Shown here: positions 7,573 to 31,489 of the stretch, one piece after another
How the letters are laid out: the number at the start of each line of letters is the position of its first letter
How positions within the stretch are numbered: position 1 is the first letter of the stretch
Assembly: GCA_020049115.1 (NCBI GenBank)
Contig: JAIFLK010000049.1
Coordinates: 1-33,502, forward strand
DNA: 33,502 bases
Source of the DNA: Chloroflexota bacterium
GTDB taxonomy: Bacteria; Chloroflexota; Anaerolineae; 4572-78; J111
Direction: 5' to 3'
Notes under the pieces: generated by a model
What the model was told of the DNA's origin: nothing
The model's database searches: none
The model's input: the letters and a program-made list of their open reading frames with translations, nothing else
Made by a program: the position numbers and the translations under genes

Positions 7573-8835
7573 ATGACACTTAATGTTATATCCCGTAAAA
7601 TTCGTTGGTTTACTTTGCTCGTTGTAATGAGTTTTTTAGCGGCTTGTGGTGGCGCAGCCCAACCCACTGCTGCCCCTGCGGCTGAGGTTGCCGATGGCGA
7701 CACGATTAAAGTGGGTATTTTACATTCACTCAGCGGCACCATGTCCATTAGTGAAGTTTCAGTGCGTGACGCGACCCTGTTAGCTATTGAAGAAATCAAT
7801 GCGGCGGGTGGTATTTTAGGCAAAAAATTAGTGCCTGTGGTTGAAGATGGCGCGAGCGATTGGCCGACCTTTGCGGAAAAAGCGGGCAAATTGCTCAAAG
7901 AAGATAAAGTTGCCGTTATCTTTGGTTGCTGGACGAGTGCCAGCCGTAAAGCGGTGTTGCCTGTCGTGGAGCAAAATAACGGTTTATTATTCTACCCCGT
8001 ACAATATGAAGGGCTAGAACAATCCCCCAATATCTTCTACACGGGGGCTGAACCGACCCAACAAATCATTCCTGGCGTAGAGTATCTCCTTTCCCAAAAG
8101 AAAACCAACATTTACTTGCTTGGCTCTGATTATGTCTTCCCCCGTACCGCCAACACCATTATCAAAGCCCAACTCGCCGCCAAAGGCGCGACCTTAGCGG
8201 GTGAAGAATATCTCCCGTTAGGTGGCACCGAATTTAGTACCATCATCAGCAAAATTCAGGCCGCTAAACCTGATGCCATTTTCAGCACTTTGAATGGCGA
8301 TAGCAATGTGGCCTTCTTCAAACAGTTCAAAGATGCGGGCTTTACCCCTGAAACCTTACCTGTTCTTTCGGTGAGCGTGGCGGAAGAAGAAGTGCGTGGC
8401 ATTGGCGCAGATAATATTGCGGGACATTTAGTGGCTTGGAATTACTATCAAACCACTGATACCCCTGAAAATAAAACTTTCGTGGCTGCTTATAAGAAAG
8501 CCTACGGTGAAGACCGCGTGACTGATGACCCGATTGAAGCGGGTTATTTTGGGGTTTATCTTTGGAAAGCGATGGTGGAAAAAGCGGGTAAAGTTGATGT
8601 GGATGCCGTAAGAGCCGCCGCTAAGAGCAATGAAATTTCTTTTAATGCCCCTGAAGGTTTAGTTAAAGTGGACGGTGAAAGTCAACATACCTGGAAAACC
8701 GTTCGCATTGGTAAGGTTCGCGCTGATGGGTTGATTGATGAAGTTTTCAGCAGCAAAGAACCTGTTAAGCCCGACCCGTTCTTAAAAGGGTATGAGTGGG
8801 CGAAAGATTTAGCTGCCGCAATGGGCAAGAAATAA
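7573..8835 (+). CDS. urtA: Urea ABC transporter, substrate-binding lipoprotein UrtA
   Basis: 420 residues. A type II signal peptide with lipobox LAAC (Cys25) is followed by a short Ala/Pro/Thr linker and a branched-chain amino acid-type binding protein: [69 protein letters not shown] and VFPRTANTI match UrtA rather than amino acid binders. It should hold urea at the outer membrane face for UrtBCDE. AGGAG is 6 bases before the ATG. It is the first gene of the operon and the whole urtABCDE-ureABC order downstream supports urea as substrate. Short-chain amides are a possible additional ligand. Confidence 0.95.
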
Positions 8836-8845
8836 ATCGTTAAAC

Positions 8846-8929
8846 ACCCTCACCCCCGCCCCTCTCCCACAAGGAGAGGGGAGACAAAATATCCCCTCGC
8901 CCTTTGGGAGAGGGGCAGGGGGTGAGGGT
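8846..8929. repeat. CCCTCACCCC-type palindrome between urtA and urtB
   Basis: Arms 8846-8869 and 8905-8929 pair over 24 bases with one bulged base and hold a second GAGAGGGGAG / CTCCCC pairing. A relative sits at 27242-27326 inside another palindrome. In the operon it could weaken read-through after the abundant urtA message. Confidence 0.8.
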
Positions 8930-8955
8930 AACGTAATTCTTTAGGAGATTATCAC

Positions 8956-9849
8956 ATGGGCGGTTGGCTATTACAGGCATTTAATGGGCTAAGTCTCGGC
9001 TCTATCTTACTGATGATTTCACTCGGCTTGGCCTTTTCCTTTGGCCTCATGAAAGTCATCAACATGGCTCACGGCGAGTTTATTATGCTAGGGGCGTATG
9101 TGACGTATGTCTTTCAAAATAATTTCGCTACCATGTTAGGCGGCCTTGATTTAGGGTTATGGTTTCTCATCTCCATTCCTGTGGCCTTCATTGTTACGGG
9201 TTTGTTAGGTATATTACTTGAAATTAGCCTGATTCGCTTCCTCTATGGTCGCCCATTGGATACCCTGTTGGCGACATGGGGCGTGGGCTTGGTGTTGCAA
9301 CAAGCCACACGCTCTATTTTTGGCGCACCTAACGTGCAAGTTGTCAGCCCCGCTTGGTTAAGTGGTGGTTTTATGATATTGGATATTACGCTACCGTATA
9401 AACGTCTGTTTATTATTGCGGTGGTTTTAGTCGCTATTGCTGTCATCTACATTCATCTAAATTATACCGCCAGTGGTCGCCGCTTGCGTGCCGTCATGCA
9501 AAATCGGGAAATGGCCTCCTGTTTAGGCGTGGCCTCCCGCCAAGTAGATGCCACAACTTTCGGTTTAGGCGCGGGATTAGCGGGCGTGGCGGGCTGTGTC
9601 TTAACCTTAATCGGCCCTATCGGCCCCTCCATTGGCACACATTACATTGTTGATGCCTTCATGGTGGTGGTTTTAGGTGGCACAGGTGGCTTAGTTGGCA
9701 CAGTTTTGGCCGCGTTCCTTATTGGCATTGCCAACACTTCCCTAGAATTTGCCACGACTGCCACTTTAGCCAAAGTGTTGGTTTTTGGGCTTATTATCGC
9801 TTTTTTACAATGGCGACCTTCGGGTTTAGTTGTCCAAACTGCGCGCTAA
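8956..9849 (+). CDS. urtB: Urea ABC transporter permease UrtB
   Basis: 297 residues with about eight hydrophobic segments, of the LivH type. [20 protein letters not shown] near the N-terminus, [18 protein letters not shown] in the middle and [19 protein letters not shown] near the C-terminus are signatures of UrtB. It pairs with UrtC to form the membrane channel for urea and is energised by UrtD and UrtE. AGGAG lies 9 bases before the ATG. Upstream neighbour urtA is 120 bases away because of an inserted palindrome. Confidence 0.95.
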
Positions 9850-9872
9850 TGATTTTTTTAGACCTACAAGTT

Positions 9873-9907
9873 TAGACCTGCAAGGTTTTCAAAACCTTGT
9901 AGGTCTA
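9873..9907. repeat. ACCTGCAAGGTTTT palindrome between urtB and urtC
   Basis: Two 17-base arms (9873-9889 and 9891-9907) around a single C, with one G-U type mismatch. Same family as 5188-5220 and 13240-13272. Confidence 0.85.
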
Positions 9908-9925
9908 GTAGTTAAGGACGTAATA

Positions 9926-11017
9926 ATGTTAAAACAAACCGCCATGCGTCAATTTATCTCAGAGTGGGGGCCAGTTATTTTATTAGGCTTATTATTTTTA
10001 TGCGCCCCGCTATTTCTGTCCGACTTTCGCCTCAGCCTCTTAGGGAAATTCTTAACCTTTGCTATTGTCGCCATTGGCCTAGATTTAATTTGGGGTTATG
10101 GCGGCATGTTAAGTTTGGGGCAGGGGCTATTTTTCGGCTTGGGTGCGTATGCCATCGCCATGCACATGAAGCTGGAAGCGGGGGGAGGTGGCTTGCCTGA
10201 TTTTATGGTGTGGAGTGGCCTGCAAGAATTGCCCCTATTTTGGCAACCGTTTCACTCGCCTTTCTTTGCGGTGGCTATGGTGATGATTTTACCCGCTACC
10301 GTCGCGGCCATGCTAGGTTTTTTGGTCTTTCGCAGCCGTATCCAAGGGGTTTATTTCTCCATTATTACGCAAGCCCTCACCCTATTGGTCAGCGTGTTGC
10401 TCGTGGGGCAACAGGAATATACGGGTGGCACGAATGGTATTACGAATTTAAGCACCATTTTTGGCTATAGTTTAATGGCACAAGAGACTCAAGTTGCCAT
10501 TTATTTCGTAACGGTCATGATGTTAGCTCTCGTTTATCTCTTTTGTTACCACCTGACACGCTCCCGTTTTGGGCGGCTATTGGTCGCCATGCGCGATGAT
10601 GAAGCCCGTGTGCGCTTTTTGGGCTATGACCCCGTTATCATCAAAACCGTAACATTTGCCATCTCCGCCGCCATTGCGGGTATCGGTGGCGCGCTTTTTG
10701 TGCCGCAAGTGGGTATCATTTCCCCGTCATCTTTAGGGGTGGTTTTCTCTATTGAAATGGTCGTTTGGGTGGCGGTAGGTGGGCGTGGCACGCTCATTGG
10801 GGCAATTATTGGGGCGTTATTGGTCAATGCGGGGCGCAGTGCTTTCAGTGAACAGTTTCCAAATGTTTGGCAATATTTCTTAGGGGCTATGTTCATAGGG
10901 GTCGTGGTATTGTTCCCGCAAGGCATTGTTGGCTCGCTCCGCTTAGGGGTTGATAAGTTATGTTTAATAAACCAAACGCCCAAATTAGAAGGCTCAGTTT
11001 CGCAACCGTCTATTTAA
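9926..11017 (+). CDS. urtC: Urea ABC transporter permease UrtC
   Basis: 363 residues from ATG 9926, a LivM-type permease with many membrane segments. [53 protein letters not shown] and [20 protein letters not shown] are UrtC signatures. An upstream in-frame TTG at 9830 is rejected: it overlaps urtB and the repeat, whereas ATG 9926 has AAGGA 8 bases before it. It forms the second half of the urea channel. An 18-codon hydrophilic tail ([15 protein letters not shown]) follows the last segment. Confidence 0.93.
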
Positions 11018-11029
11018 TAAACTTAAATT

Positions 11030-11087
11030 CTTAGCGACTTTGCGTCTCTGCGTTAAAAATTCAACGCCAAGACTCTAAGTCGCTAAG
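11030..11087. repeat. CTTAGCGACTT palindrome between urtC and urtD
   Basis: Imperfect 25-base arms (11030-11054 and 11063-11087) starting CTTAGCGACTT and ending AAGTCGCTAAG. The ends resemble those of the urtE-ureA palindrome (GCTAAGAA) only loosely. Confidence 0.75.
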
Positions 11088-11111
11088 AGTTAATCAACAG
11101 AGGAAAATCCC

Positions 11112-11942
11112 ATGACGCAACCTAAAATTTTAGCCGTAAAAAATGTAACGGTCAGTTTTGATGGTTTCACCGTGCTAGATAATTTGAATTTCAGCATGAA
11201 TTATGGTGAATTACGTTTTCTCATTGGGCCAAATGGCGCGGGCAAAACCACCTTCCTAGACATTATCACCAGCAAAACCAAGCCCACACGCGGCGAAGTT
11301 ATTTTTGATAAGACCGTAAACATTAGCCATTTACCTGAGCATAAAATTGTCCAACAAGGGATTGGACGCAAATTTCAAACCCCTGCCATCTTTAGCAGTC
11401 TAACGGTCTATGAAAATTTAGAGGCGGCCATTAGCTTCCGCGAATGGAGTATCCAATTATTTCGCTGGCTATCACCTTCCAATCGTGAACGGATTACGGA
11501 AACTTTAGAGCTAGTCGGCTTGCAAGAGCGCGCCGATGTCCGCGCGGGGGCGTTATCACATGGCGAAAAACAATGGCTAGAAATTGGCATGTTACTCATT
11601 CAGAAGCCCAAATTGTTGTTATTAGATGAACCTGTCGCGGGCATGACGCGGCGTGAGCGCAACCGCACAGGTGAGTTGCTACAAAATATTGCTAAAAATT
11701 ACTCTGTTCTGGTGGTGGAACATGACATGGAATTTGTGCGGAGTTTTGCCAAAACTGTCACCGTATTACATACAGGCAAGGTGTTATGTGAAGGCACAAT
11801 GGAGCAAATCCAACGTGACCCCCGTGTGGTTGAGGTTTATTTAGGCCGCGCTCACGGCGAAGCTCGCCCTCCCAAGCATGAACGGGTTTCCGTCCCCACA
11901 CAGCGCGTTGGGCGTATGCCCATGCCCGCGTTGGCGAGTTAA
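11112..11942 (+). CDS. urtD: Urea ABC transporter ATPase UrtD
   Basis: 276 residues, LivG-type ATPase. Walker A GPNGAGKTT, Q-loop region GIGRKFQTPAIFSSLTVYEN, signature LSHGEKQWLEIG, Walker B LLLLDEPVAGM and switch histidine in VVEHDMEFV are all present. LSHGEKQWLEIGMLL and RGEVIFDKTVNI are typical of UrtD. It works at the inner face of the membrane with UrtE. The last 25 residues (after YLGRA) are an unusual basic/Pro-rich extension. AGAGGA is 8 bases before the ATG. Confidence 0.94.
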   Translation: MTQPKILAVKNVTVSFDGFTVLDNLNFSMNYGELRFLIGPNGAGKTTFLDIITSKTKPTRGEVIFDKTVNISHLPEHKIVQQGIGRKFQTPAIFSSLTVYENLEAAISFREWSIQLFRWLSPSNRERITETLELVGLQERADVRAGALSHGEKQWLEIGMLLIQKPKLLLLDEPVAGMTRRERNRTGELLQNIAKNYSVLVVEHDMEFVRSFAKTVTVLHTGKVLCEGTMEQIQRDPRVVEVYLGRAHGEARPPKHERVSVPTQRVGRMPMPALAS

Positions 11943-11943
11943 A

Positions 11944-12105
11944 GAATCCGCGAAAAACCGCGAAGTTTCCACCTGTAAATCTTTAGGCGATGGGTTAAAG
12001 GAGTCCGCAATCATTTGCGGACAGCCCGCAAATGATTGCGGACTCCTTAATTAAATCCTCCAAACAGGTGGCAAAGTTTTTAATTTTTTCTTCTTTCGCG
12101 GATTC
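11944..12105. repeat. Triple-nested palindrome between urtD and urtE
   Basis: Outer arms GAATCCGCGAAA (11944-11955) and TTTCGCGGATTC (12094-12105). Inside them CCACCTGT (11969-11976) and ACAGGTGG (12064-12071). Inside those a perfect 21-base GGAGTCC-ended palindrome (12000-12020 and 12026-12046) with a 5-base loop. Three families appear to have entered one inside the other. Confidence 0.85.
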
Positions 12106-12129
12106 TCAGTAGTTAAAAGGTGTTATTTT

Positions 12130-12831
12130 ATGTTACAAGTTGAACAACTCCAGGCATATTATGACGACAGCCGCATCCTCAATGATGTTTCCTTAACCGT
12201 TCCCGATAATCAGGTGGTTTGTTTATTGGGGCGTAATGGGGTGGGCAAAACGACCTTCATGAAAACGGTCATGGGAGTGGTTAAGGCGCGTCATGGCATG
12301 ATTAAGCTTAGTGGCGAAGATATAACCACCTACTCCACCAGTCAACGGGCGCGGGCGGGCATCGGGTATGTGCCGCAGGGACGGGGTATTTTCCCTTATC
12401 TGACGGTTTATGAAAACCTGCTCATGGGCTTTGAGGCCACGCCCAAACGCCAGGTTGAAGCCGACATATTAGAGGAAATGTATCATCTGTTTCCCGTGTT
12501 AAAGACCATGCAAAAACGGGTGGCGGGGACATTAAGCGGCGGACAACAACAGCAACTCGCCATTGCCCGCGCCCTCGTAGGTCGGCCTAAACTTTTATTA
12601 CTAGATGAACCCACTGAGGGGATTCAGCCTTCCATTATGTTAGAAATTGAGGAAGTGATAATTTCACTTCAAGCCCATAGTAATATTACAATTTTGGTGG
12701 TGGAACAATTTCTGGATTTTGCCCTAGCCATTGCCGATTATTTCTATATTATGGAAACGGGCGTGATTGTCGAGCAAGGGCCGATTGCTAATTTTAACGA
12801 TGACCTTGCCAAATTATATCTGGCGGTTTAG
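12130..12831 (+). CDS. urtE: Urea ABC transporter ATPase UrtE
   Basis: 233 residues, LivF-type ATPase. Walker A GRNGVGKTT, GIGYVPQGRGIFPYLTVYEN, signature LSGGQQQQLAIARAL, Walker B LLLLDEPTEGIQPSI and the switch region ILVVEQFLDFALAIAD (Gln in the usual LivF style) are all in place. VPQGRGIFP and EGIQPSI are typical of UrtE. Partner of UrtD. Only a weak ribosome site (AAAAGGTG) precedes ATG 12130, after the nested palindrome. Confidence 0.95.
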   Translation: MLQVEQLQAYYDDSRILNDVSLTVPDNQVVCLLGRNGVGKTTFMKTVMGVVKARHGMIKLSGEDITTYSTSQRARAGIGYVPQGRGIFPYLTVYENLLMGFEATPKRQVEADILEEMYHLFPVLKTMQKRVAGTLSGGQQQQLAIARALVGRPKLLLLDEPTEGIQPSIMLEIEEVIISLQAHSNITILVVEQFLDFALAIADYFYIMETGVIVEQGPIANFNDDLAKLYLAV

Positions 12832-12837
12832 TAGGCA

Positions 12838-12908
12838 GAGTCCGCTAAGAAACACGAAGAAAAATTAAGAAAAAACTATAGCGGTTCTTCGCGTTTCTTA
12901 GCGGATTC
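12838..12908. repeat. GTCCGCTAAGAAAC palindrome between urtE and ureA
   Basis: 24-base arms 12838-12861 and 12885-12908 with two G-U type mismatches; AT-rich loop. Confidence 0.8.
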
Positions 12909-12923
12909 GATTAAGGTAATCTT

Positions 12924-13226
12924 GTGCATTTAACTCAACGTGAGCAAGAAAAATTATTAGTCCATGTGGCCGCAGATGTGGCGCGTAAACGACAGGCGCG
13001 CGGCCTCAAGCTGAATTATCCCGAATCAATCGCCATTTTGACCGCCGAAATTATGGAAGCAGCGCGTGACGGCAAAACGGTGGCCGAGATTATGGTTTAT
13101 GGCACCACCATTTTGAGCCGCGCCCAAGTGATGGACGGCATTGCCGAGATGATTCATGAAGTGCAGGTTGAGGCCACGTTTCCCGACGGCACAAAACTTG
13201 TCACCGTGCATGACCCCATTCAATAA
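12924..13226 (+). CDS. ureA: Urease gamma subunit UreA
   Basis: 100 residues from GTG 12924, the standard length. The family sequence [40 protein letters not shown] and the [20 protein letters not shown] end are all conserved. It is the small structural subunit of the (UreABC)3 urease that hydrolyses urea to ammonia and carbamate. AAGG lies 8 bases before the GTG. It directly follows the urt genes, so transport and hydrolysis are in one operon. Confidence 0.96.
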
Positions 13227-13239
13227 ACATGATATAACA

Positions 13240-13272
13240 AAACCTCACAGGTTTTCAAAACCTGTGAGGTTT
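13240..13272. repeat. AAACCTCACAGGTTTT palindrome between ureA and ureB
   Basis: Perfect 16-base arms (13240-13255 and 13257-13272) around one C. It ends 3 bases before the AGGAG of ureB. Confidence 0.9.
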
Positions 13273-13286
13273 CAAAGGAGCAAGCC

Positions 13287-13670
13287 ATGAAACCAGGAGC
13301 CTATTTGCTCAATGAAGCTGCGGGGCCAATTGAGGCCAATGTGGGGCGACCAACGGCGCAATTATTAGTCATACATCGTGGAGACCGCCCGATTCAGGTT
13401 GGAAGTCACTTCCATTTTTTTGAGGTCAATCGTGATTTGCTCTTTGACCGTCAAGCCGCATACGGTTTACGTTTGAATATCCCTGCGGGGACGGCGGTGC
13501 GTTTTGAGCCAGGCGATACCAAAGAGGTCAATTTAGTGGCTTTAGCGGGCGAGCGCGTCATGTATGGACATAACGGTTTTGTGAATGGGGCGTTAGATGA
13601 GGCCACAGTACGGCAAGCTGCCGTAGTTGCTTATCAAGCGGCTCAATTTGGGGATACGGAGGGCAGTTAA
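13287..13670 (+). CDS. ureB: Urease beta subunit UreB
   Basis: 127 residues. [73 protein letters not shown] and the NGFVNG stretch are conserved UreB features. Structural subunit; it helps form the flap side of the active site. AGGAG lies 8 bases before the ATG. The start of ureC follows after 2 bases, the only gap in the urea operon too small to hold a palindrome. Confidence 0.96.
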
Positions 13671-13672
13671 TC

Positions 13673-15388
13673 GTGAGCTTAAAAATACCACGAAATGTTT
13701 ATGCAGATTTATATGGGCCGACAACGGGTGACCGCGTGCGGTTGGCGGACACCGAACTCATCATTGAGATTGAGCAAGATTACACTCACTATGGGGACGA
13801 AATTGCCTTTGGCGGCGGTAAAGTGATTCGTGATGGCATGGGGCAAAGCAGTCGTGCCACGCATGATGGCGCGTTAGATGTCGTCATCACCAATGCCATT
13901 GTATTAGACCATTGGGGCATTGTGAAAGGTGACATTGGCATTAAGAATGGACGCATTGTTAAGGTCGGCAAAGCGGGCAACCCTGACACGATGGCAGGCG
14001 TTGACCCTGAATTGGTGGTGGGCGCGTCTACGGAGGTGATTGCGGGCGAACATTGCATTATTACGGCGGGTGGCATTGATAGCCACATCCATTTTATCGC
14101 CCCGCAGCAGATTTATGAAGCCCTGAATAACGGGATTACCACCATGCTCGGCGGTGGCACTGGCCCCGCCACAGGCACAAATGCTACCACATGTACGCCT
14201 GGCGCGTGGAACATGGCACGCATGTTACAGGCGGCTGACGCGTGGCCGATGAATTTTGGCTTTTTGGGCAAGGGTAACGCTTCGACTGCCGCGCCCTTAA
14301 TTGAGCAGTTGCGCGCGGGCGCGATTGGCCTGAAATTGCATGAGGATTGGGGAACGACTCCCGCCGCGATTGACGCATGTTTGGCGGTGGCTGACCAATT
14401 TGATGTGCAGGTGGCGATTCACACCGACACCTTAAATGAAGCGGGTTTTGTGGAGGATACGATTGCCGCCATCAAAGGGCGCACCATTCACACCTACCAC
14501 ACGGAGGGCGCGGGCGGTGGGCATGCGCCTGACATCATTAAAATTGCGTCATTTCCTTACATTTTACCTTCGTCAACCAACCCCACTCGCCCTTACACCA
14601 TCAACACCATTGCTGAACATTTAGATATGTTAATGGTGTGTCACCATCTTAATTCTCAAGTGCCTGAAGATGTGGCCTTTGCCGAGAGTCGGATTCGCCC
14701 TGAAACCATTGCGGCGGAGGACATTCTGCATGATTTAGGCGTATTAAGCATGATTTCAAGCGACTCCCAAGCGATGGGGCGTGTCGGTGAAGTGGTCACG
14801 CGCACCTGGCAGACCGCCCATAAAATGAAGGTGCAGCGTGGGGCATTGCCACAAGATACGGCGCGTCATGATAACCACCGTGCCAAACGTTATGTTGCGA
14901 AATATACCATTAACCCTGCTATCGCGCATGGCATTAGCCATGAGGTGGGTTCAATTGAGCCAGGCAAATTAGCCGATTTGGTGCTATGGAAACCCGCCAT
15001 GTTTGGGGTCAAACCTGAAATGATTATTAAGGGTGGCTTTATTGCCTGGAGCGTCATGGGCGATGCCAATGCCTCCATTCCCACGCCGCAACCCGTTTGG
15101 TATCGCCCCATGTTTGGCTCATTTGGTGGCGCAACGGCCGCGACGAGTGTCACTTTTGTCTCGGCGGCGGCACTGGAGGCAGATTTGCCCGCGCAGATTG
15201 GTATGCGGAAAACAGCGGTGGCGGTGAAAAATTGCCGTAATATTGGTAAAGTTGACATGGTGCATAACAGTGCCATGCCCACGATTGAAGTTGACCCTGA
15301 AACCTACGAAGTGCGCGCCGATGGCGAATTATTAACCTGTGAACCCGCCGAAGTGTTGCCGCTGGCGCAACGATATTTTCTGTTTTAA
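13673..15388 (+). CDS. ureC: Urease alpha (catalytic) subunit UreC
   Basis: 571 residues from GTG 13673, the usual length. All nickel and catalytic residues are visible: H138 and H140 (DSHIHF), the carbamylated K221 (GLKLHEDWG), H250 ([10 protein letters not shown]), H276 ([15 protein letters not shown]), catalytic H324 (LMVCHHLN) and D364 ([10 protein letters not shown]). It should be a working urease once nickel is loaded by UreD/F/G. GGAGG precedes the GTG, inside the end of ureB. Cytoplasmic. Confidence 0.97.
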
Positions 15389-15399
15389 CGGTATGAGGC

Positions 15400-15455
15400 G
15401 GAGTCCAAAGCCGTAGGCTTTGAGTTGTGAGTCAAAGCCTACGGTTTTGGACTCC
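15400..15455. repeat. GGAGTCCAAAGCCGTAGG palindrome after ureC
   Basis: 22-base arms 15400-15421 and 15434-15455 with one G-U mismatch. A near-identical copy lies inside the CCACCTGTAAAT palindrome at 23025-23080. Confidence 0.85.
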
Positions 15456-15511
15456 ATAACTATCACCTAAAAATTTAGCTGACAACATCTTTACTGAAAG
15501 GAGTATGACTC

Positions 15512-16360
15512 ATGGCGCATCTGTTATCTAATAAAACAACTCGATATTTAGTGCCACAAATCAGCGATGATTATCAGCAACGTAGCTTAAATCAGTTCTC
15601 TATTTTACCTGACAAGGTTAATTTAGTCGCAAAATTTTTAGCTTTCATTACAATTATTACATTTTGGTGGCTGGCGACGCAATGGGGCTTGGTCAATACA
15701 ACCCTATTGCCGTCCCCGCAAGATGTTTTTTGGGCTGCCGTGTCGTTGTGGACGCAGGGGGGGCTTAGTCAAACTATCGCCCTCACTTTTTTGCGGGTTT
15801 CAATTGCCTTTATGGTGGCCGTTATTATTTCATTACCATTGGGCATAATTTTAGGGCTTGAGCCGAGATTACAATTTTGGTTTAGCCCACTTACTGTTAT
15901 TTTTCGTTATTTGTTAACGGTTGCTTTAATGCTGCTCTTCATCTTTTATTTAGAAGGCAATGAACTCACCAAAATCATGCTTATTTTGTTTGGCATGGTT
16001 AGTTATAACCTCTTAAGAATTACTGAAGTTATTAAAGACGTGCCACGAACTTTGATTGATACCACTTATACTTTAGGGGGTAATTTTCAACAAATTATCT
16101 TTGAGGTTATCTTACCTTACGCCTGGCCTAAAATTATTGAAATATTTCGACTCAATGTTGCCATTGCCTGGAGTTTAGTTATGGTGACTGAATTGTTAGC
16201 GGCTAAAATTGGTTTAGGGCAGAGTTTGTTGGCCGATCAACCCACTTTACACTCAAGTCAGGTGATGGCCTACTTGCTCATTTTAGGTGGATTAGGTCTA
16301 GCCATTGACCTATTTTTCCGTTGGGCTTTGGGGGTTACTTGTGAATGGTCATTGGAGTAA
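15512..16360 (+). CDS. ABC transporter permease, NitT/TauT type
   Basis: 282 residues with about six membrane segments after a roughly 45-residue hydrophilic N-terminus. The pattern ITFWWLATQWGLVNTTLLPS PQDV, TLGGNFQQIIFEVILPYAWP (the EAA loop) and AWSLVMVTELLAAKIGLG places it in the nitrate/sulfonate/taurine permease group. AGGAG is 9 bases before ATG 15512. It overlaps the following ATPase gene. There is no binding protein gene beside it. Its place between ureC and ureG suggests a nitrogen or nickel-linked substrate, but that is only inferred from context. Confidence 0.85.
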   Translation: MAHLLSNKTTRYLVPQISDDYQQRSLNQFSILPDKVNLVAKFLAFITIITFWWLATQWGLVNTTLLPSPQDVFWAAVSLWTQGGLSQTIALTFLRVSIAFMVAVIISLPLGIILGLEPRLQFWFSPLTVIFRYLLTVALMLLFIFYLEGNELTKIMLILFGMVSYNLLRITEVIKDVPRTLIDTTYTLGGNFQQIIFEVILPYAWPKIIEIFRLNVAIAWSLVMVTELLAAKIGLGQSLLADQPTLHSSQVMAYLLILGGLGLAIDLFFRWALGVTCEWSLE

Positions 16361-17120
16361 CCGCGATTTTAACCGATTTGACAAACCTTTAGAAGTCACT
16401 CTAGTTGCTAAGGTTTTTGCTACGCCCCAAGGTCAACTTTTGGCTCTACACCAAATCAATTTATTCGTCAACCCTGGCGAATTTATCACGATTTGTGGCC
16501 CATCAGGCGCAGGAAAATCAACTTTATTGCGCCTGATTGCGGGTTTAGATACACCTGACATGGGCCACCTGTCGTTGAATGGTCAGCCTATTAGCGGCCC
16601 TGGCCCTGAACGCGGCCTTATTTTTCACCAACCCACCGTTTATCCCTGGCTCACGGTGGGGGAGAATGTCGGTTTTGGTCTAAAATTACAATACTTTGCC
16701 AAATCAGAACGCAATAAACAAGTTGAGATCTATCTTAATTTGGTCGGTTTGGTAGATTGTGAGCAGCTTTATCCTAAAGACTTATCTGAGGAACAATTAC
16801 AACGTATGGCGATTGCGCGAGCTTTGATTTGCGAACCCAAGCTATTGTTATTAGATGACCCTTTTGTTACGTTAGATATACCTTCTCGTGAACGGCTGCA
16901 AGAATTGTTACTCAAAATTTGGCAATATTTTGGCGTGAGCATTTTATTAGCCACCCGTGATATAACGGAGGCTATCTTTTTAGGTCAACGGGTTTATCTG
17001 CTTTCCAATCACATTCAGGCCGAAGTTCCCATTGACCTGCCGCAACCTCGGACTCAGCGTCTCAAACAAGAGCCTCAGCTTCTTAATTATATCAAATATA
17101 TGGCCGATTTGAGCCATTAG
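16341..17120 (+). CDS. Degenerate ABC transporter ATPase, NitT/TauT type
   Basis: 259 residues from GTG 16341, which overlaps the permease by 20 bases; an ORF start at 16305 would overlap more and lacks a ribosome site. Walker A GPSGAGKS (53-60) and the Q-loop FHQPTVYPWLTV are intact. Three other motifs deviate: signature LSEEQ (148-152) for LSGGQ/M, Walker B LLLLDD (168-173) with Asp in place of the catalytic Glu, and Arg206 (ATRDITEA) where the switch His is expected. The reading frame is intact, so it is not an ordinary pseudogene. It may bind ATP but hydrolyse it poorly or not at all. The family is clear; activity is doubtful. Confidence 0.85.
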   Translation: MNGHWSNRDFNRFDKPLEVTLVAKVFATPQGQLLALHQINLFVNPGEFITICGPSGAGKSTLLRLIAGLDTPDMGHLSLNGQPISGPGPERGLIFHQPTVYPWLTVGENVGFGLKLQYFAKSERNKQVEIYLNLVGLVDCEQLYPKDLSEEQLQRMAIARALICEPKLLLLDDPFVTLDIPSRERLQELLLKIWQYFGVSILLATRDITEAIFLGQRVYLLSNHIQAEVPIDLPQPRTQRLKQEPQLLNYIKYMADLSH

Positions 17121-17290
17121 CACTTGAGTTCAGGATAACGGTTGCCTGACGCTAAAGCGGTCAGGCTAAGAAAACAAAGTACGCTAAAGCGCACTTAATT
17201 TGCTTCATGGCGTGGCTTTTTAGCCTACTTGAGTAGGCTTTGTCTTCTTAGCACGACGGCTTCAGCCTCGTGCCGTTTTATCCCAATTTA
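17121..17290. repeat. 170-bp GCTAAAGC repeat between the ATPase and ureG
   Basis: Contains CCTGACGCTAAAGC, AGGCTTTGTC and CACGACGGCTTCAGCCTCGT pairings. A related copy is at 27721-27981. It is bounded by the 9-base direct repeat AGCCATTAG (17112-17120 and 17291-17299); the left copy is the last codons and stop of the ATPase. Confidence 0.7.
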
Positions 17291-17312
17291 AGCCATTAGT
17301 AGGAGTATTTGG

Positions 17313-17996
17313 ATGACTAATTCAACCTTTAATAGCCTTTTCAAAGTGGGCATTGCGGGGCCAGTGGGCAGTGGAAAAACTGCGCTCGTCTCGCGGTTGT
17401 GCGAAAAATTACACGCCAAATATAACTTGGCGGTAGTGACAAACGATATTTATACCAAAGAAGATGCCGAGTTTTTATTGCGCCAAAATATTTTGCCAAT
17501 GGAACGGGTGCGCGGCGTGGAAACGGGCGGTTGCCCTCATTCTGCTATTCGTGATGATGCCTCCATGAACATTGAAGCGGTGGAAGATTTGCTAGAAACA
17601 TTGCCTGGGCTAGAAATGGTTTTCATCGAAAGCGGTGGTGATAATCTAGCCGCGTCCTTTAGCCCAGAGTTGGTTGATGTGTGGATTTATGTCATTGACG
17701 TGGCGGCGGGGGATAAAATTCCGCGCAAGGGCGGCCCTGGCATTATTCGCTCAGATTTGCTCGTCATCAATAAAATTGACCTCGCGCCTTTAGTTGGGGC
17801 TTCATTAAACGTTATGGAGCATGATACGTTGCATGTGCGGGGCAATTATCCGTTCATCTTTACGAATTTGAAGGATGAGACGGGTTTGGCTAACGTGGTG
17901 GCGTGGGTAGAGGACAAATTTATCACCCGCAGCCCCGCCCGTTGGCATGAACCCGTTCAAGTTTATAACAACTATCAGGTATTACATCAGCATTAA
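17313..17996 (+). CDS. ureG: Urease accessory GTPase UreG
   Basis: 227 residues. P-loop GPVGSGKT (16-23), the nickel-binding C-P-H motif (74-76) in [45 protein letters not shown] and the GTPase NKID motif are all present, so it should be functional. It provides GTP-driven nickel delivery to UreC together with UreD and UreF, which are not in this window. AGGAG lies 8 bases before ATG 17313. A terminator follows and ends the urea operon. Confidence 0.96.
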
Positions 17997-22811: not shown

Positions 22812-22979
22812 GTGCTTTGTTCATTTAATTTCTAGTATATCCGAACAGACAGGAATGTCTGTTCTACCGCTGGTAGGTCGGACATTCTTGTCTGACCATG
22901 TACAGGAATGTCTGTTCTACCGCTGGTAGGTCGGACATTCTTGTCTGACCATGTACAAAAAATTAAATGAACAGTCCAG
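22812..22979 (-). mobile_element. GTGGACTGTTCA MITE, copy 2 (168 bp)
   Basis: Inverted relative to the copy in xisH. Ends GTGCTTTGTTCA and TGAACAGTCCAG, flanked by TA (22810-22811 and 22980-22981). The interior carries a perfect 53-bp tandem duplication (22851-22903 and 22904-22956) holding AGGAATGTCTGTTC and GGACATTCTTGTC palindromes. Confidence 0.85.
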
Positions 22980-22995: not shown

Positions 22996-23105
22996 CCACC
23001 TGTAAATTTTCAGGGGATATTGATGGAGTCCAAAGCCGTAGGCTTTGTGTAGTGGGTCAAAGCCTACGGCTTTGGACTCCATATCACCCATTTATTTACA
23101 GGTGG
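22996..23105. repeat. CCACCTGTAAAT palindrome holding a GGAGTCC palindrome
   Basis: Outer arms CCACCTGTAAAT (22996-23007) and ATTTACAGGTGG (23094-23105). Inside, perfect 22-base arms 23025-23046 and 23059-23080, nearly identical to the repeat after ureC. With the MITE this fills most of the gap between the divergent lipoprotein and kinase genes. Confidence 0.85.
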
Positions 23106-23172: not shown

Positions 23173-25800
23173 ATGCCACCCCAAAACCAGCCTCATTTAC
23201 TGCAAAAGGATGGTCTGCTCATTTCTGGCGATGATGTTATTACTGTTTCTTCCGTTTATTTAGGTGAAGATGACGGTGGCACGCGCGTGGTATCTGATTT
23301 AGGTGAAGATGACGGTGGTACGCGCTTGGTATCTGATTTAGGTGAAGATGACGGTGGCACACGCGTGGTGTCGGATTTAGGTGAAGATGACGGTGGTACG
23401 CGCGTGGTATCCGATTTAGGTGAAGATGACGGTGGTACGCGCGTGGTATCCGATTTAGGTGAAGATGACGGTGGTACGCGCTTGGTGTCGGATTTAGGTG
23501 AAGATGACGGTGGTACGCGCTTGGTGTCGGATTTAGGTGAAGATGACGGTGGCACGCGCGTGGTGTCGGATTTAGGTGAAGATGACGGTGGTACACGCGT
23601 GGTATCCGATTTAGGTGAAGATGACGGTGGTACACGCTTGGTATCCGATTTAGGTGAAGATGACGGTGGCACGCGCGTGGTATCCGATTTAGCTTCTAAA
23701 ATTAATACGCAAATTTCCCCGTCTAAAATAATGACTGCGACGCAGCCCAGCGTAATTCAGGTTACTCAAAAGCAATCTAAAATAACCGATACACAACCGA
23801 GTCTGGCCTCACAAACCACTCATCGGGGGAGTTTATTACAACCAGGGCAGCTTTTAGCCCAACGGTATCAGGTGAATAAAATTTTGGGTAGAGGTGGTTT
23901 TGGGGCCGCTTATTTAGCTGAAGACGTGCGATTACGGCGGCTATGTGTGGTTAAGCAAATGTTAGTGCCAGCAAATCGCACCGCAAAACAAATTGAGCAA
24001 TTACGTGCCTCGTTTGAGCAAGAAGCCAATTTATTAGCCCAACTCAACCAACCAGGCCATCCTAATATCCCTGAAATTTATGATTATTTTTTCGACGAGT
24101 CGGGCAATTATTTAGTCATGAAATATATTCAGGGTAAAGACCTGAATGATGTTATTAAGCAAGCTGAAGGCAAATTGCCGTGGCGTGAAACTATTCGTTA
24201 CATGATAGCGGTGTGCGATGCCTTAAGTTACATGCACACTCAGGGCAATCAACCTGTGCTGCATCGTGATGTTAAGCCAGGAAATATTTTGCTGGGCAAT
24301 GATGGACGATTATGGCTGGTTGATTTTGGGTTAGCCATGGAAGGCGTGGCGAGCGCAGGCGCGACTGAGGGGAGTGGTAGCCCTGGCTATACGCCATTGG
24401 AGCAATGGTTGGGCAAAGCGATAAGTGCTTCAGATGTATATGCGGCAGGGGTTACATTACATTATCTTGTTACCTCGATTAATCCCTTGGAGGCGTATGG
24501 TGGCAAAGTAACCGTGCCAAAATTAAAAGAGCTACATGGTAAATTGCCATCCTTAGACAAAATTGAAACCTTGGATAAAACCATTCCCAAAGAATTAAAT
24601 AGCATTATTGCCGCAGCCATAGCGGTTGAACCCCAAGACCGCCCTACGGCTAATCAACTAAAACAAGAACTACAATTATTGATTTCGGGCGCGCAAAGTG
24701 CGGCTCTATTTACTTTCAAAAATGGGATTTCAGCGGTAACGGTTGACCAATTGGTTGATTTATGTGAGCAAAATCAGGCCGAGGCGCGGGGTTATCTCTA
24801 TAATGGGGATTTTGAACGTTGGTTTTCGTTAATCAATCGCAATGATTTAGCCGAGGCGGCCCACCAAGCGGTTAAACAATATCCGCAAAAGCAAAAGCAG
24901 GGACTAGAGCGATTCTTGAAATTAGCCCGCCCTGGTCTTTTTTGGCGACGAGTACGTATAGCTGGGCTTACCCTTGCTCGTTGGTCTGCAACATTTTTGC
25001 TGGCTTTATGCCTGGTTTTAATCCTCGTTACGGTTGGTGGAGCTTACAGCAGCCGATTATTGATTCGTTGGGGGATTGCCACCTACCCCTGGAGTTTCTA
25101 TACCTTAAAAACGAATGAACCCAATATCTTTACCGAGAGCTATTTGAGCGAAAATTTGGCTTTGCTGACCAATACTATTTTGACTGAACCCCATGTGGAT
25201 GTGGTTACGCCTGACCAAGTGAAATTGGAAGGTCAACTGGGGAATTATCAAGTGAGTGTTCCTTTAACCTTACAGCTGCAAGGGCAAAAGCCATTTCTTA
25301 AGTTTGGTACGGATAATCAATGGGTCGAGTATTTTATTACTGATAATATCGTACAAGGTATCAATGAAGGTATTAGTGATGCTTTTCGTACTTCGCCCGT
25401 AGATATTACCGATTTAAGGGTGAATAACCAAGCTATTACGTTTACCGTTAAACTGAATGGTCAAGTGGCCCTAGCAACTCCAACGCCCGGCCCTACCGCT
25501 ACGCCCACCCCATTGCCAACCCCGACCATGACTGCCACGCCTGATGGCCCAGCTTTAATTGTTATTTATAACGATGTGGGGCATGATATTATTTTGCAAC
25601 TGGATGGCGAAACATGGAACATGCCCACTAATGGCACGCAATTAGTGGAAAAACCGCCAGGGGTTTATAGCTACACAGTGCTTTATCGTGCCAATGGGCA
25701 GTTGGCAGCGCAGGGCAGTAAAGATTGGAAAGTGAAGGCGTATCGCTGGCATATTGAGGTGGCGGATTTAAATGCTACTCCGCCAGCAGATAAAAATTAA
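23173..25800 (+). CDS. Transmembrane Ser/Thr kinase with eleven N-terminal 13-residue repeats
   Basis: 875 residues from ATG 23173 (AAGGA upstream; the TTG at 23149 is less likely). Residues 30-172 are eleven copies of LGEDDGGTR(V/L)VSD. A linker with two TQPS motifs leads to a Ser/Thr kinase domain (about 230-505): glycine loop GRGGFG (239-244), lysine in CVVKQM, catalytic HRDVKPGN (364-371), DFG (384-386), and GSPGYTPLEQW in the activation segment. A cytoplasmic helical domain follows, one membrane segment (about 603-625), then an extracytoplasmic domain, a TPGPTATPTPLPTPT linker and a C-terminal beta domain. All catalytic residues are intact. Each repeat has one Thr with Val at +3, fitting an FHA-binding phosphosite. 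The neighbouring gene encodes an FHA-kinase. Confidence 0.9.
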   Translation: MPPQNQPHLLQKDGLLISGDDVITVSSVYLGEDDGGTRVVSDLGEDDGGTRLVSDLGEDDGGTRVVSDLGEDDGGTRVVSDLGEDDGGTRVVSDLGEDDGGTRLVSDLGEDDGGTRLVSDLGEDDGGTRVVSDLGEDDGGTRVVSDLGEDDGGTRLVSDLGEDDGGTRVVSDLASKINTQISPSKIMTATQPSVIQVTQKQSKITDTQPSLASQTTHRGSLLQPGQLLAQRYQVNKILGRGGFGAAYLAEDVRLRRLCVVKQMLVPANRTAKQIEQLRASFEQEANLLAQLNQPGHPNIPEIYDYFFDESGNYLVMKYIQGKDLNDVIKQAEGKLPWRETIRYMIAVCDALSYMHTQGNQPVLHRDVKPGNILLGNDGRLWLVDFGLAMEGVASAGATEGSGSPGYTPLEQWLGKAISASDVYAAGVTLHYLVTSINPLEAYGGKVTVPKLKELHGKLPSLDKIETLDKTIPKELNSIIAAAIAVEPQDRPTANQLKQELQLLISGAQSAALFTFKNGISAVTVDQLVDLCEQNQAEARGYLYNGDFERWFSLINRNDLAEAAHQAVKQYPQKQKQGLERFLKLARPGLFWRRVRIAGLTLARWSATFLLALCLVLILVTVGGAYSSRLLIRWGIATYPWSFYTLKTNEPNIFTESYLSENLALLTNTILTEPHVDVVTPDQVKLEGQLGNYQVSVPLTLQLQGQKPFLKFGTDNQWVEYFITDNIVQGINEGISDAFRTSPVDITDLRVNNQAITFTVKLNGQVALATPTPGPTATPTPLPTPTMTATPDGPALIVIYNDVGHDIILQLDGETWNMPTNGTQLVEKPPGVYSYTVLYRANGQLAAQGSKDWKVKAYRWHIEVADLNATPPADKN
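23260..23688 (+). repeat. 39-bp tandem repeat, eleven copies, within the kinase gene
   Basis: Eleven 39-base units in frame, each coding 13 residues. Units differ mostly at synonymous third positions (GGT/GGC, ACG/ACA, TCT/TCC/TCG) and at one Val/Leu position. Because 39 is a multiple of three, the antisense frames also stay open. Confidence 0.98.
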
Positions 25801-25908: not shown

Positions 25909-27159
25909 CTAACCATCATAAAAAACTACACTTAAAGTACTTAATCGCACCACATCCCCGTTTTTAAGTAAAATAGGATAGCCCTTCATAACGGGTACAT
26001 TATTAACAAATGTACCGTTTAAGCTCCCTAAGTCATCGATATACCAACCATCAGGTTGCTTGGTTAAAGCTGCATGATGACGCGACACCCCCATATCTAC
26101 TGCCCCATAAGCCATTAAATCAATATCAGCCATCACTTGCCGATGAGTTCGCCCGATAATTATATAATTCTTAATGGGGAGGTCTAGCCTGGTTTTATCA
26201 GGTAAAATCAAATGGGTTTGGCGCGCCAGCTTCTTATCGTTAGGGCGTGGATCTAAGGCCAGAGTCGGAATGTCTTTTTGATTGACGACCCTGGTTTGTT
26301 TAAGTAAGCCAGCCCACCCACCTGATTGATTAGCTATCTCTATTGCCAAAATATCTTTCAACATCTTACCCACTTCCCCTAAGCTAATATAACGCTCTTC
26401 AGGGGATTTAGCCAACATTTTTGTAATAATTTCAGTTAAATTTGAGGGGCAATCAGGATTTAGCTCCTGTAATGGTGGTATTGATTCAGAGATATGCGCG
26501 AGCAAAATTTTGCTGGCATTAGCATAATTAAAGGGTAACCGCCCTGCTAACATTTCAAACATAACCACCCCTAAAGCATACATATCGGCGTGGTAATCAA
26601 GCTCAAGGTTACGGGCTTGTTCAGGTGATATATAAGCAGGTGTCCCTAACGGTGCGCCCTGACTGTTTAAATCAGCTGTTTGCCCAGTTTGTGGTAATTT
26701 CATCAAGCCAAAATCAGCTAATAAAGGCCAATTTGCTTGCGGCATTAAAATATTCGCGGGCTTAACATCCCCATGAATCTTGCCATGTTGATGAATATAA
26801 TCTAACACCTGGGTGAGTGGCAGGATTAATTTAATGACAGGTTGCCATTCCATAGGTTGTCCTTTAAGTTGGTCGCGTAAAGTTCCTTGCTCCACATATT
26901 CCATGACCAAGAAAGGATAACCATCCTGCTCCCCATAATCATAAATTGTCAATAAATTACGATGATGTAACTGAGCCATAGCTCGCGCCCCAAGCTCAAA
27001 CCTCAAACGGGTATTTGGGTCGCGGTAATATAATATCTTTATGGCTACCCAGCGTTTTAATTCAGCTTGATAGGCTTTATACACCGTTGCCAAGCCGCCA
27101 GAGCCAATTTCAGAAACAATTTGATAACCACCTATGAGTTGTCCCAGAAGATTGTCCAT
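25909..27159 (-). CDS. Ser/Thr kinase with C-terminal FHA domain
   Basis: 416 residues. Kinase domain about 12-270: glycine loop GSGGLATV (19-26), K41 in VAIK, catalytic HGDVKPAN (129-136, Gly replacing the usual Arg of HRD), DFG (149-151), GTPAYISPEQ (172-181). HGD kinases are not activated through the usual arginine-phospholoop contact. A 50-residue linker leads to an FHA domain (about 322-412) with its conserved IGR (335-337), SRHHA (359-363) and LGSLNGT (378-384); FHA domains bind phosphothreonine. There is no membrane segment, so it is cytoplasmic. It is transcribed towards the repeat-bearing kinase and ends 108 bases from it. Kinase and FHA assignments are confident. Confidence 0.92.
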   Translation of the reverse strand: MDNLLGQLIGGYQIVSEIGSGGLATVYKAYQAELKRWVAIKILYYRDPNTRLRFELGARAMAQLHHRNLLTIYDYGEQDGYPFLVMEYVEQGTLRDQLKGQPMEWQPVIKLILPLTQVLDYIHQHGKIHGDVKPANILMPQANWPLLADFGLMKLPQTGQTADLNSQGAPLGTPAYISPEQARNLELDYHADMYALGVVMFEMLAGRLPFNYANASKILLAHISESIPPLQELNPDCPSNLTEIITKMLAKSPEERYISLGEVGKMLKDILAIEIANQSGGWAGLLKQTRVVNQKDIPTLALDPRPNDKKLARQTHLILPDKTRLDLPIKNYIIIGRTHRQVMADIDLMAYGAVDMGVSRHHAALTKQPDGWYIDDLGSLNGTFVNNVPVMKGYPILLKNGDVVRLSTLSVVFYDG

Positions 27160-28018: not shown

Positions 28019-31000
28019 ATGCCCATGCTAGACTTACAAAATATCCTCAATAAAGTCATTGCCAATACTAACGAACTCTTCGAGGCCGAAGCTGGCTCAG
28101 TCGCTTTACTAGAGCCATCCAATCAGCAAATTGTCATTTACGCCGCCGTAGGCGAAGGGGCTGATGCGGTGCGTGGGGTCAGTTTGCCAGTTGGAAAAGG
28201 AATTGTGGGCTGGGTTATTTCCAACGAACAGCCCACCATTGTGCCTGATGTCAGCCTTGATAGCCGCTTTTATGCCTCGGTGGATGAACAAATTGGCTTC
28301 CACACCCAATCTATTATGTGCGCCCCATTGTGGGTTGATGGACATATTATTGGGGTTATTGAACTCATTAACATTCATCCTGACTATTTGAATGACAATG
28401 GCCTTAAAATTTTAACCGTTTTTGCCGACCATGCAGCCCTGGCCATTGAAAACGGCCAGCTTTTGGCCGAAGCCCGCCAATGGTCTGAGCAGCAAACCCT
28501 CCTTTTTGCCCCACAAACTGAAATCACCTCTGACCGCGCCCTAGAAACCATTGTTAATATGGTCAGTCGTCAATTGTTAGAAGTGCTTAAGGTTGATTTA
28601 TGTTTGATTTCTCGTTGGGATGAAGGGCAAAAGCAATTACGGATTCTGCATAGCCAAGCCAATACAGCTTTACCTCAATTACAAAAAATAGCTCGTTCCC
28701 TCGCCAACTCGCCCTTAACTTGGGCTTTAACTGCTGAAACGCCTCCTATTTTATATGCCAACGACCCAGATTTAACACCTGCGACGGCTGATTGGCTTAA
28801 TTTATTGCAAGTCCATCTATTATTTGCCATGCCCCTGACCTATCACCGTGAAGTGATTGGCTTGGTGGAAGTGGCGCGAGTTCATTCGGCTGAACCGTTG
28901 ACCAAAGATGACATTCGCATGGCTGAGATAATTGTGGCGCAAGCTGCGGCCACCATTGAACACGCCACCCGCTATGATGCCACCGCCCGCCGTCTGGCTG
29001 AAACCAATGTATTACAGCAGGTTATGATGGCCGCCGCCGCCAAACTTGATTTTGATGATGTTTTACATGAAACCATCAAAGCTCTGCATCGTGCTTTAGG
29101 CATTGAGCGATTAGCCGTTATTTTGCCCGCGTCACCAGGAAAAATTGCCACAACGCACCCCGCAACGATTGGTTTTCCTAACGATACCGTCATGATTCCC
29201 ATTGAAAATAGTGCGCCAGGGTGGGTCATTCACCATGGACGGCCCTTACTCTTACCTAATAATACGGAATCTAATCCTTATCATGAATTAAGACAAGATA
29301 CCCACTCAGCCATGTATGTGCCAGTTATGTTAGATGATAAAGTCATGGCCGTGTTATGTGCTGAAAGCCCCCGCCTCAATGCCTTTGGCGAATCTGATTT
29401 ACGTCTGTTTGGGGCCATTGCCGCCGAGTTAGCCATTGCCCTGAAAAACGCCAAATTATTTGAGGCCGAGCATCGCCTCGCCAGCCAACGCCAAGCCATG
29501 CTTGATATTTTTGCCGATTTAAGCTCAGAGCTACAGCCCGAAGTCTTATTTCAACGTATCATTGAGCGTGCCGTTCAGGTCATTCCCCATGCCGATGCCG
29601 GCAGTTTCATCATTCCCAAAGGCACCATGTTTGTTTATGCCGCCGCCGTCGGTATGGATATAAAAACATTACAACAATTTGCCTTCTCGCGCGAATCAAT
29701 GCTGCGAGAAATCCCGCCGCCACAAAAAGTTCGCCATATCTCAAAGGCGGATTTATCGGCCATCTCGCGCCAAAACATGTTACCTAACCTTAACTTTGGT
29801 AGCTTTAAACAAGTGGGTTTAGTTAAAATTGAATCTACTATTCAAGCAGGCTTACATACAAGCGATGATATTTTGGGCGTATTAAGCATTGATAGTTTTT
29901 CTGGCCCAACGGCTTTTACGGAAGATGATGAACAAACCTTACTTCTTTTTGCCAACCAAGCCTCTATCGCGCTACAAAATGCCCGTCTCTTTGATGAGGT
30001 ACGTACCGCCGAGGCTAACTATCGTGATTTATTTGATAATGCCAATGATTTTATTATCACGTTAGATGGTAAATTTCGCTTAACCAGTGCCAATAAAGTC
30101 ACCCTCAAAACCAGTGGCTACAGCCTGGCAGAGTTGCTGCATGTTCCCATTACGAAATTTCTAGCTCCCAAGCAAATTCCCTTGCTTTACAAAGCCCTTA
30201 AAACTCATATTGCCCACACCGAAATGGCTGCGCCACTTGAGCTAACTATCTTGGGCAAAAATCAGCAAGAGATACTCCTAGAAGCGACCATTCGGATTCA
30301 GCACCATAATGGGCGGCCCATTGGTATCCATTGTATCGCCCGTGATATTACACAACGCCGAGTGTTAGAGCAACAATTACAGCAAAACGAAAAACTCTCA
30401 GCTATTGGTAAATTGGTGGCGGGCGTGGCGCATGAACTCAATAATCCGCTCACAGCGGTCATTGGCTATGCCAGTTTATTACAAGATAGTGACATTGCTT
30501 CAGTTTACAAAAATGACTTGGAGGCGATTTTCCGCCATGCTCAACGGGCGCGTTTCATTGTACGGGATTTATTAACCTTTGCTCAACGGGTCAACTTAAA
30601 CCCGAAACCCATTCAGTTGAATGAGGTGCTGCAACTCAGCCTAACACAGATGAAATCAAATATTAATAATCATCAAATTGAGGTTATCACCCACCTTGCG
30701 CCCAATTTGCCTATTACTATGGGCGACCCACGTCAGTTGGAACAAGTTTTTATTAATTTGCTGACCAATGCCTGCCAAGCCCTAGAAAAGATGACCTGTC
30801 CACGACAAATTGTCATTAGCTCACAAAAAATAAACCAAACCATTTTGATAAAATTGGTCGATAATGGTGGGGGGATTCCTGCCGAGATTCTCAAACAAAT
30901 TTTTGAACCATTTTTTAGCACCAAAGAGATGGGGCAGGGGACGGGGCTAGGGCTGTCTATCTGTTTTGGCATTATTAGCGAGCATAAAGGGCGTATTTGG

Positions 31001-31489
31001 GCGGATAATGCCCCCGATAGCGGAGCGGTTTTTTATATTGAACTGCCAATTAAAACCCCGCCTATTGCACCTAAGTTGCCTGAAAAAATGGCAAATAATC
31101 GCCATGTAAAACAGCCCCACCTGCAAATTTTAGCTATTGACGATGAAGGAACGGTGTTAGAATTATTAAATCGAGTCCTCTCTCCCCTCGGCCATCAGGT
31201 GGATTTGGTTTCTAATGGACACACAGCGTTAGAAAAATTAGGCCAAAATAGCTACGACTTAATTATTTGTGATGTACTTATTCCCTATCTATCAGGCATT
31301 GAGTTATATAAAATTGCTCGTGAAAAATTTCCCGAAACGGCGCAAAAATTCCTGTTCGTTACGGGGAATGCCACTGATTTACAAACGAAACATTTCTTGG
31401 AAAAATCAGGCTTGCCCTGGTTAGCCAAGCCATTTTTACCCACTGAGTTGGAAATCTTAATCAATCAACATGCTGATAAACGCATTTAA
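28019..31489 (+). CDS. Hybrid sensor histidine kinase (GAF-GAF-GAF-GAF-PAS-HisKA-HATPase-REC)
   Basis: 1156 residues, no membrane segment, so a soluble sensor. Four GAF-like domains lie at about 8-150, 170-320, 330-480 and 490-660, the first with GKGIVGWVI. A PAS domain follows (about 665-785) with IARDITQR at its end. The HisKA box VAGVAHELNNPL carries the phospho-accepting H805; the ATPase domain has NLLTNACQAL (913-922), DNGGGIP (948-954) and GTGLGLSI (974-981). The C-terminal receiver has DDE (1041-1043), phospho-accepting D1085 in IICDVLIP and K1137 in LAKPF. All key residues are present. It stands alone after a repeat-filled gap, with no paired regulator, so it must signal to an unlinked partner. 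The ligand is unknown. Confidence 0.93.
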   Translation: MPMLDLQNILNKVIANTNELFEAEAGSVALLEPSNQQIVIYAAVGEGADAVRGVSLPVGKGIVGWVISNEQPTIVPDVSLDSRFYASVDEQIGFHTQSIMCAPLWVDGHIIGVIELINIHPDYLNDNGLKILTVFADHAALAIENGQLLAEARQWSEQQTLLFAPQTEITSDRALETIVNMVSRQLLEVLKVDLCLISRWDEGQKQLRILHSQANTALPQLQKIARSLANSPLTWALTAETPPILYANDPDLTPATADWLNLLQVHLLFAMPLTYHREVIGLVEVARVHSAEPLTKDDIRMAEIIVAQAAATIEHATRYDATARRLAETNVLQQVMMAAAAKLDFDDVLHETIKALHRALGIERLAVILPASPGKIATTHPATIGFPNDTVMIPIENSAPGWVIHHGRPLLLPNNTESNPYHELRQDTHSAMYVPVMLDDKVMAVLCAESPRLNAFGESDLRLFGAIAAELAIALKNAKLFEAEHRLASQRQAMLDIFADLSSELQPEVLFQRIIERAVQVIPHADAGSFIIPKGTMFVYAAAVGMDIKTLQQFAFSRESMLREIPPPQKVRHISKADLSAISRQNMLPNLNFGSFKQVGLVKIESTIQAGLHTSDDILGVLSIDSFSGPTAFTEDDEQTLLLFANQASIALQNARLFDEVRTAEANYRDLFDNANDFIITLDGKFRLTSANKVTLKTSGYSLAELLHVPITKFLAPKQIPLLYKALKTHIAHTEMAAPLELTILGKNQQEILLEATIRIQHHNGRPIGIHCIARDITQRRVLEQQLQQNEKLSAIGKLVAGVAHELNNPLTAVIGYASLLQDSDIASVYKNDLEAIFRHAQRARFIVRDLLTFAQRVNLNPKPIQLNEVLQLSLTQMKSNINNHQIEVITHLAPNLPITMGDPRQLEQVFINLLTNACQALEKMTCPRQIVISSQKINQTILIKLVDNGGGIPAEILKQIFEPFFSTKEMGQGTGLGLSICFGIISEHKGRIWADNAPDSGAVFYIELPIKTPPIAPKLPEKMANNRHVKQPHLQILAIDDEGTVLELLNRVLSPLGHQVDLVSNGHTALEKLGQNSYDLIICDVLIPYLSGIELYKIAREKFPETAQKFLFVTGNATDLQTKHFLEKSGLPWLAKPFLPTELEILINQHADKRI

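Follow-up and report, generated by a model that had tools for sequence, protein, structure and literature searches.

An eleven-copy acidic threonine repeat in a Chloroflexota membrane kinase is a candidate multi-site dock for FHA domains

Introduction

The N-terminal tail of a membrane Ser/Thr protein kinase, encoded in a 33,502-nucleotide contig of a Chloroflexota bacterium (the whole stretch analyzed here, hereafter the window), carries eleven tandem 13-residue units, each with one threonine in an acidic, T-x-x-hydrophobic context, and we consider it probable that this array is a multi-site docking tail whose threonines, when phosphorylated, would be bound by FHA domains. This reading takes its basis from the array itself, from a threonine-centered core that is conserved in relatives with differing tails, from intact kinase and FHA domains, and from gene neighborhoods that recur.

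Results

An in-frame 39-bp array with a uniform threonine motif

The array spans positions 23260–23688 of the forward strand, and tandem-repeat searching with unit-by-unit comparison resolves these 429 bp into 11 × 39 bp (TRF score 723, 93% matches, 0 indels), exactly the coordinates and copy number given in the original prediction. All eleven units translate in frame as LGEDDGGTR(V/L)VSD, seven with V and four with L; the threonine codons start at 23281 and then at every 39 bp up to 23671, and the threonine, the acidic residues and the Val at T+3 are invariant, such that the single acidic-context threonine with Val at +3 that had been attributed to each unit is indeed present in 11 of 11. The 13 residues immediately 5′ of unit 1, ISGDDVITVSSVY (23221–23259, forward strand), lie in register with the array and retain DD and T; from their sequence they are probably a decayed unit. 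We find no match to the 13-residue unit in the 149 other genomes of the class (150 searched) or elsewhere in its own genome. Minus-strand open reading frames over the array were rejected as genes, as they are mirror images of the repeat.

The near-identity of the units in DNA, also part of the earlier description, is reflected in a mean pairwise identity of 93% (range 87–100%), with nine distinct DNA versions among the eleven units. Variation is confined to 5 of 39 columns: four are silent third positions, and the fifth gives the conservative V/L exchange at T+2. With at least five silent among approximately six changes, and 10 of 39 sites synonymous, a hand calculation gives P near 0.005, a value to be read in light of changes that are few and not independent, because units arise as copies of one another.

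The array lies in a predicted unstructured tail of a membrane kinase

The array corresponds to residues 30–172 of an 875-residue protein (23173–25800, forward strand). We take the ATG at 23173 as its start, the mechanical open reading frame beginning at TTG 23149; sequence inspection reveals an AAGGA-type ribosome site directly 5′ of this ATG. A PF00069 match in the same protein (23866–24666, E = 3.6e-41) substantiates the assignment of the repeat to a kinase N-terminus. The array-bearing tail directly precedes this domain, in which the catalytic Lys, HRD, Asn and DFG are conserved, and invariant in eight aligned relatives. The closest solved kinase domains are those of StkP and PknB, with PknG absent among the best 60 matches listed. 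A hydrophobic stretch at approximately 24980–25060 is a putative transmembrane helix (model helix 589–637); the C-terminal part beyond it is modeled as β-rich, and no TPR domain is matched in the protein by Pfam.

In an AlphaFold2 model, residues ~1–224 (23173–23844) have a pLDDT of ~25 and no predicted secondary structure, vs. ~60–90 for most of the remainder, although the input alignment was shallow (8 sequences) and the low pLDDT may partly reflect this. The model is thus consistent with a disordered tail without being proof of one.

An Anaerolineae kinase of other architecture (L084) has in common with the repeat kinase a segment 3′ of the kinase domain, ...TFKNG...LVxLCxxxxxEAxxYLYNGDFERWF..., which matches no Pfam family in the repeat kinase and may be an undescribed domain.

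Relatives conserve the kinase and rebuild the tail

Full-length relatives of the kinase are encoded by 8 genomes, counting that of the window, of the 12 in the bacterial family, and by 0 of 13 other genomes of the same order; named relatives include the Anaerolineales bacteria HSG24 and HSG25 and several Chloroflexi/Anaerolineae MAGs, and the G003 copy is truncated at the edge of its contig. Alignment is good over the kinase and C-terminal parts and fails in the N-terminal tails. Tail repeats have DNA periods of 108 bp (G007), 90 bp (G006) and a nested 42–138 bp (G011), and within G002 of 84/75 bp (C584), 48 bp (C75) and 123 bp (C22); the tails of G009, G004 and G002:C689 have three to four scattered sites with no array, and that of G001 has a single site. 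Across tails, the site numbers are 1, 3, 3, 4, 7, 9, 10, 11, 11, 14 and at least 16. Copy number had been predicted to vary between strains; at the level of species, site number does vary, since a pair from a single genus, 85% identical over the kinase and C-terminal parts, has 10 sites and at least 16, the latter a lower bound from a partly masked tail.

Several relatives begin with a zinc-ribbon-like CxxC pair 5′ of the tail. In G002:C584 (L026 411–413), one in-frame stop, either a sequencing error or real, separates this zinc-ribbon-like start from the array.

On visual inspection, the units, being acidic and rich in Gly, bear a superficial likeness to calcium-binding repeats, and they might accordingly bind calcium in a DxDG-like manner or fold as a regular solenoid, with the conservation of threonine incidental. 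We regard this as very improbable and reject it, since the unit spacing ranges from 13 to ~30 residues among relatives, with Gly-Gly not kept, and no structure is predicted for the tail; the tail also lies on the kinase, i.e., cytoplasmic, side of the membrane helix.

An acidic-threonine-hydrophobic core persists in differing tails

Nearly all relatives keep a core with acidic residues at −4/−3, threonine, hydrophobic residues at +1 to +3 and often Ser or Pro at +4, as in DDGGTRVVS, DDGATFFMP, EDGFTVAMP, DDGHTTMLS, AEEATMFMP and TDDLTTRII. Comparison of 191 threonine-centered windows from 11 tails, with repeat copies collapsed per tail, to tail shuffles reveals acidic enrichment before the threonine (−4, z = 5.6; −3, z = 3.2) and hydrophobic enrichment after it (+1, z = 7.2; +2, z = 4.5; +3, z = 6.6). 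When at least two of the five residues preceding the threonine are acidic, +3 is hydrophobic in 55% of cases vs. 20% in shuffles (z = 8.5); the corresponding figure for acidic-context threonines in ordinary proteins of the window is 22% (8/36). As the relatives' windows are phylogenetically dependent, these z values denote a departure from composition and not a count of independent events. Serine-centered windows in the same tails have no hydrophobic signal at +3 (z = −1.0).

Site counts exceed those of shuffles in 10 of 11 tails, the exception being G001. Among the fetched loci, all reading frames with z ≥ 3 belong to this kinase family except for one lipoprotein frame (z = 3.6), and no such array is found in the other kinases and FHA proteins of these loci. 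Together with the 10 vs. at least 16 sites at 85% identity, these results indicate that the core survives while units turn over.

These data bear on whether the array is simply a minisatellite evolving neutrally within an acidic, disordered linker, where neither length nor content matters much. The high similarity of the DNA units, an expansion private to one genome and the wide differences among relatives' tails are all as expected of such a sequence, but it is difficult to see how neutral turnover would retain a threonine-centered core across tails built from different units, leave the changes within the array almost all silent, and spare the serines of the same tails from any such context. 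Neutrality is already disfavored by this threonine-centered signal in the sequences, and we consider it distinctly unlikely.

An FHA-kinase adjoins the repeat kinase

The convergent neighbor (25909–27159, reverse strand) is by Pfam a Ser/Thr kinase with a C-terminal FHA domain and is the candidate reader. Its FHA domain (25942–26160, reverse strand; PF00498, E = 8e-17) has intact GR, SRHH and SLNGTFVNN motifs; alignment with the Rv1747 and GarA FHA domains, the nearest solved ones, reveals that the phosphothreonine-pocket residues (GR, SR, NGT..N) are present. The same FHA-kinase follows the repeat kinase in the same convergent arrangement in G002:C689. Adjacency is limited to these two genomes, and the two genes are on different contigs in G007, G009, G004 and G001. 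A GAF/PAS histidine kinase with a receiver (28019–31489, forward strand) is a recurrent companion of both kinases: G007:C90 and G001:C488 have it next to the FHA-kinase, and G004:C175 and G009:C88 have it in the vicinity of the repeat kinase. That the three genes recur in overlapping pairs suggests, without proving it, that they act in a shared pathway. The genome encodes 28 FHA domains at only ~56% completeness, making readers other than the neighbor possible.

The linker between the kinase and FHA domains of the neighbor contains TRVV (26284–26295, reverse strand), the identical four residues found in the repeat, and some relatives' FHA-kinase linkers contain an acidic TIQL or TFQL. Conservation of a GarA-like threonine in these linkers is not supported by the count of T-x-x-hydrophobic sites (in 9 linkers vs. 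8.2 expected, P = 0.43), a comparison blurred both by the first FHA strand and by loose linker boundaries.

Additional elements in the window

A 19-bp partly palindromic element, GAACAGACATTCnTGTCTG, occurs at 4345–4422, 22849–22957, 27673 and 33475, with some copies in tandem; 94 exact copies are present in the genome vs. 0 for a reversed control, and it resembles a REP-type intergenic repeat family. The region 5′ of the kinase gene holds a near-perfect hairpin (23023–23082; fold z = −12.6) whose arms measure ~25 bp and which may be a small mobile element or a regulatory one. By inspection, the translations at 7573–17996 read as a urea ABC transporter, the urease subunits ureABC, another ABC transporter and ureG; no ureD, ureE or ureF is obvious among the window's frames of at least 100 aa. 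A divergent kinase-like protein at 1485–2879 has a C-terminal cysteine cluster and matches Pkinase weakly, under the curated cut-off.

Discussion

We propose that the repeat kinase, or the kinase encoded next to it, would phosphorylate the threonine in each acidic T-x-x-hydrophobic unit, and that FHA domains, most plausibly that of the adjacent FHA-kinase among them, would bind the resulting phosphothreonines. The repeat kinase could in this way hold several copies of an FHA partner or substrate at once, in a manner akin to the recruitment of GarA by the autophosphorylated PknG N-terminus, while tandem DNA duplication would grow, shrink and replace the array and selection would keep the threonine core. 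The array, its conserved core, the intact domains and the recurrent neighborhoods are observed; that the threonines are phosphorylated, that FHA domains bind them, which protein reads them and what site number does are inferred.

The T-x-x-V/L pattern was originally ascribed to FHA preference. An acidic-T-x-x-hydrophobic core kept in relatives, the lack of such arrays in other kinases and FHA proteins, and an FHA-kinase that adjoins support this in part, and more strongly than one sequence alone could, but a hydrophobic residue at +3 is only one among several FHA preferences, and there is no universal +3 rule (PMC4037201). A substrate preference of the kinase itself would explain the pattern equally well, and this resemblance renders FHA binding inseparable from being phosphorylated. 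Mycobacterial kinases likewise favor acidic residues before the threonine and hydrophobic residues after it, a similarity that makes reader and substrate preference inseparable by sequence.

The threonines may instead be autophosphorylated with no FHA reader at all, the tail working as a charge switch or, like a substrate, competing for the kinase's own active site, with activity tuned by the number of sites. Such self-regulation would account no less well than a reader for a threonine-specific motif that is acidic on its N-terminal side and hydrophobic on its C-terminal side, and a tail directly 5′ of the kinase domain is well placed for it; yet many near-identical sites would add little to simple self-inhibition, and FHA domains are numerous in the genome, with one of them in the very next gene. 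On balance we consider a tail without a reader unlikely, and favor FHA docking.

The closest parallel to a docking tail is PknG with GarA/OdhI in Mycobacterium and Corynebacterium, where autophosphorylation sites in the disordered PknG N-terminus (Thr23, Thr32, Thr63 and Thr64) anchor GarA via its FHA domain, an interaction on which efficient phosphorylation of this substrate depends (PMC8546545). Removing the PknG tail reportedly alters phosphorylation of the partner and leaves activity toward a free peptide unchanged. The repeat kinase shares with PknG a predicted disordered N-terminal segment with several candidate threonine sites followed by a Ser/Thr kinase domain, and the CxxC pair of several of its relatives is loosely reminiscent of the PknG rubredoxin domain. 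PknG differs in having ~4 scattered sites instead of 11 tandem near-identical candidates, and in being cytosolic with TPRs, whereas the repeat kinase has a membrane helix and a β-rich C-terminal part without TPR.

Tandem acidic phosphothreonine motifs that form a disordered, multivalent dock are known from the SDT repeats of human MDC1, which bind the NBS1 FHA-BRCT region in DNA repair (PMC8079451). The repeat kinase presents tandem acidic threonine units, which are putative phosphosites, in a region predicted to be unstructured; however, MDC1 is eukaryotic, is phosphorylated by a separate kinase, CK2, rather than being part of a kinase, and uses a pSer-Asp-pThr motif in place of T-x-x-hydrophobic. 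In the mycobacterial PknH-EmbR and PknQ-MupFHA pairs, a kinase and an FHA protein are linked by FHA-mediated phosphorylation or binding (PMC7785237, PMC4238996), and gene adjacency similarly pairs a Ser/Thr kinase with an FHA protein here. PknQ-MupFHA docking involves activation-loop residues, not a repeated N-terminal tail, and the candidate FHA partner here is, unlike those in both pairs, itself a kinase. We found no bacterial multivalent FHA docks or Chloroflexota kinase repeats described in the open-licence literature; eukaryotic DNA repair provides the best-known multivalent phosphothreonine docks for FHA domains, and the bacterial cases that we found have few, scattered sites.

We suggest, more tentatively than docking itself, that a fast-changing DNA minisatellite sets the number of FHA docking sites, with each lineage having assembled its array anew from a unit of its own and retained only the acidic-Thr-x-x-hydrophobic core. 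The single-site tail of G001 implies that a large array is not essential. If this proposal is correct, the minisatellite would set how many partner molecules are held per kinase or how sharply the system switches. The tails that share the threonine core and differ in unit sequence form a natural series of site numbers, with which one may ask what the number of docking sites does and whether repeat turnover tunes a signaling threshold.
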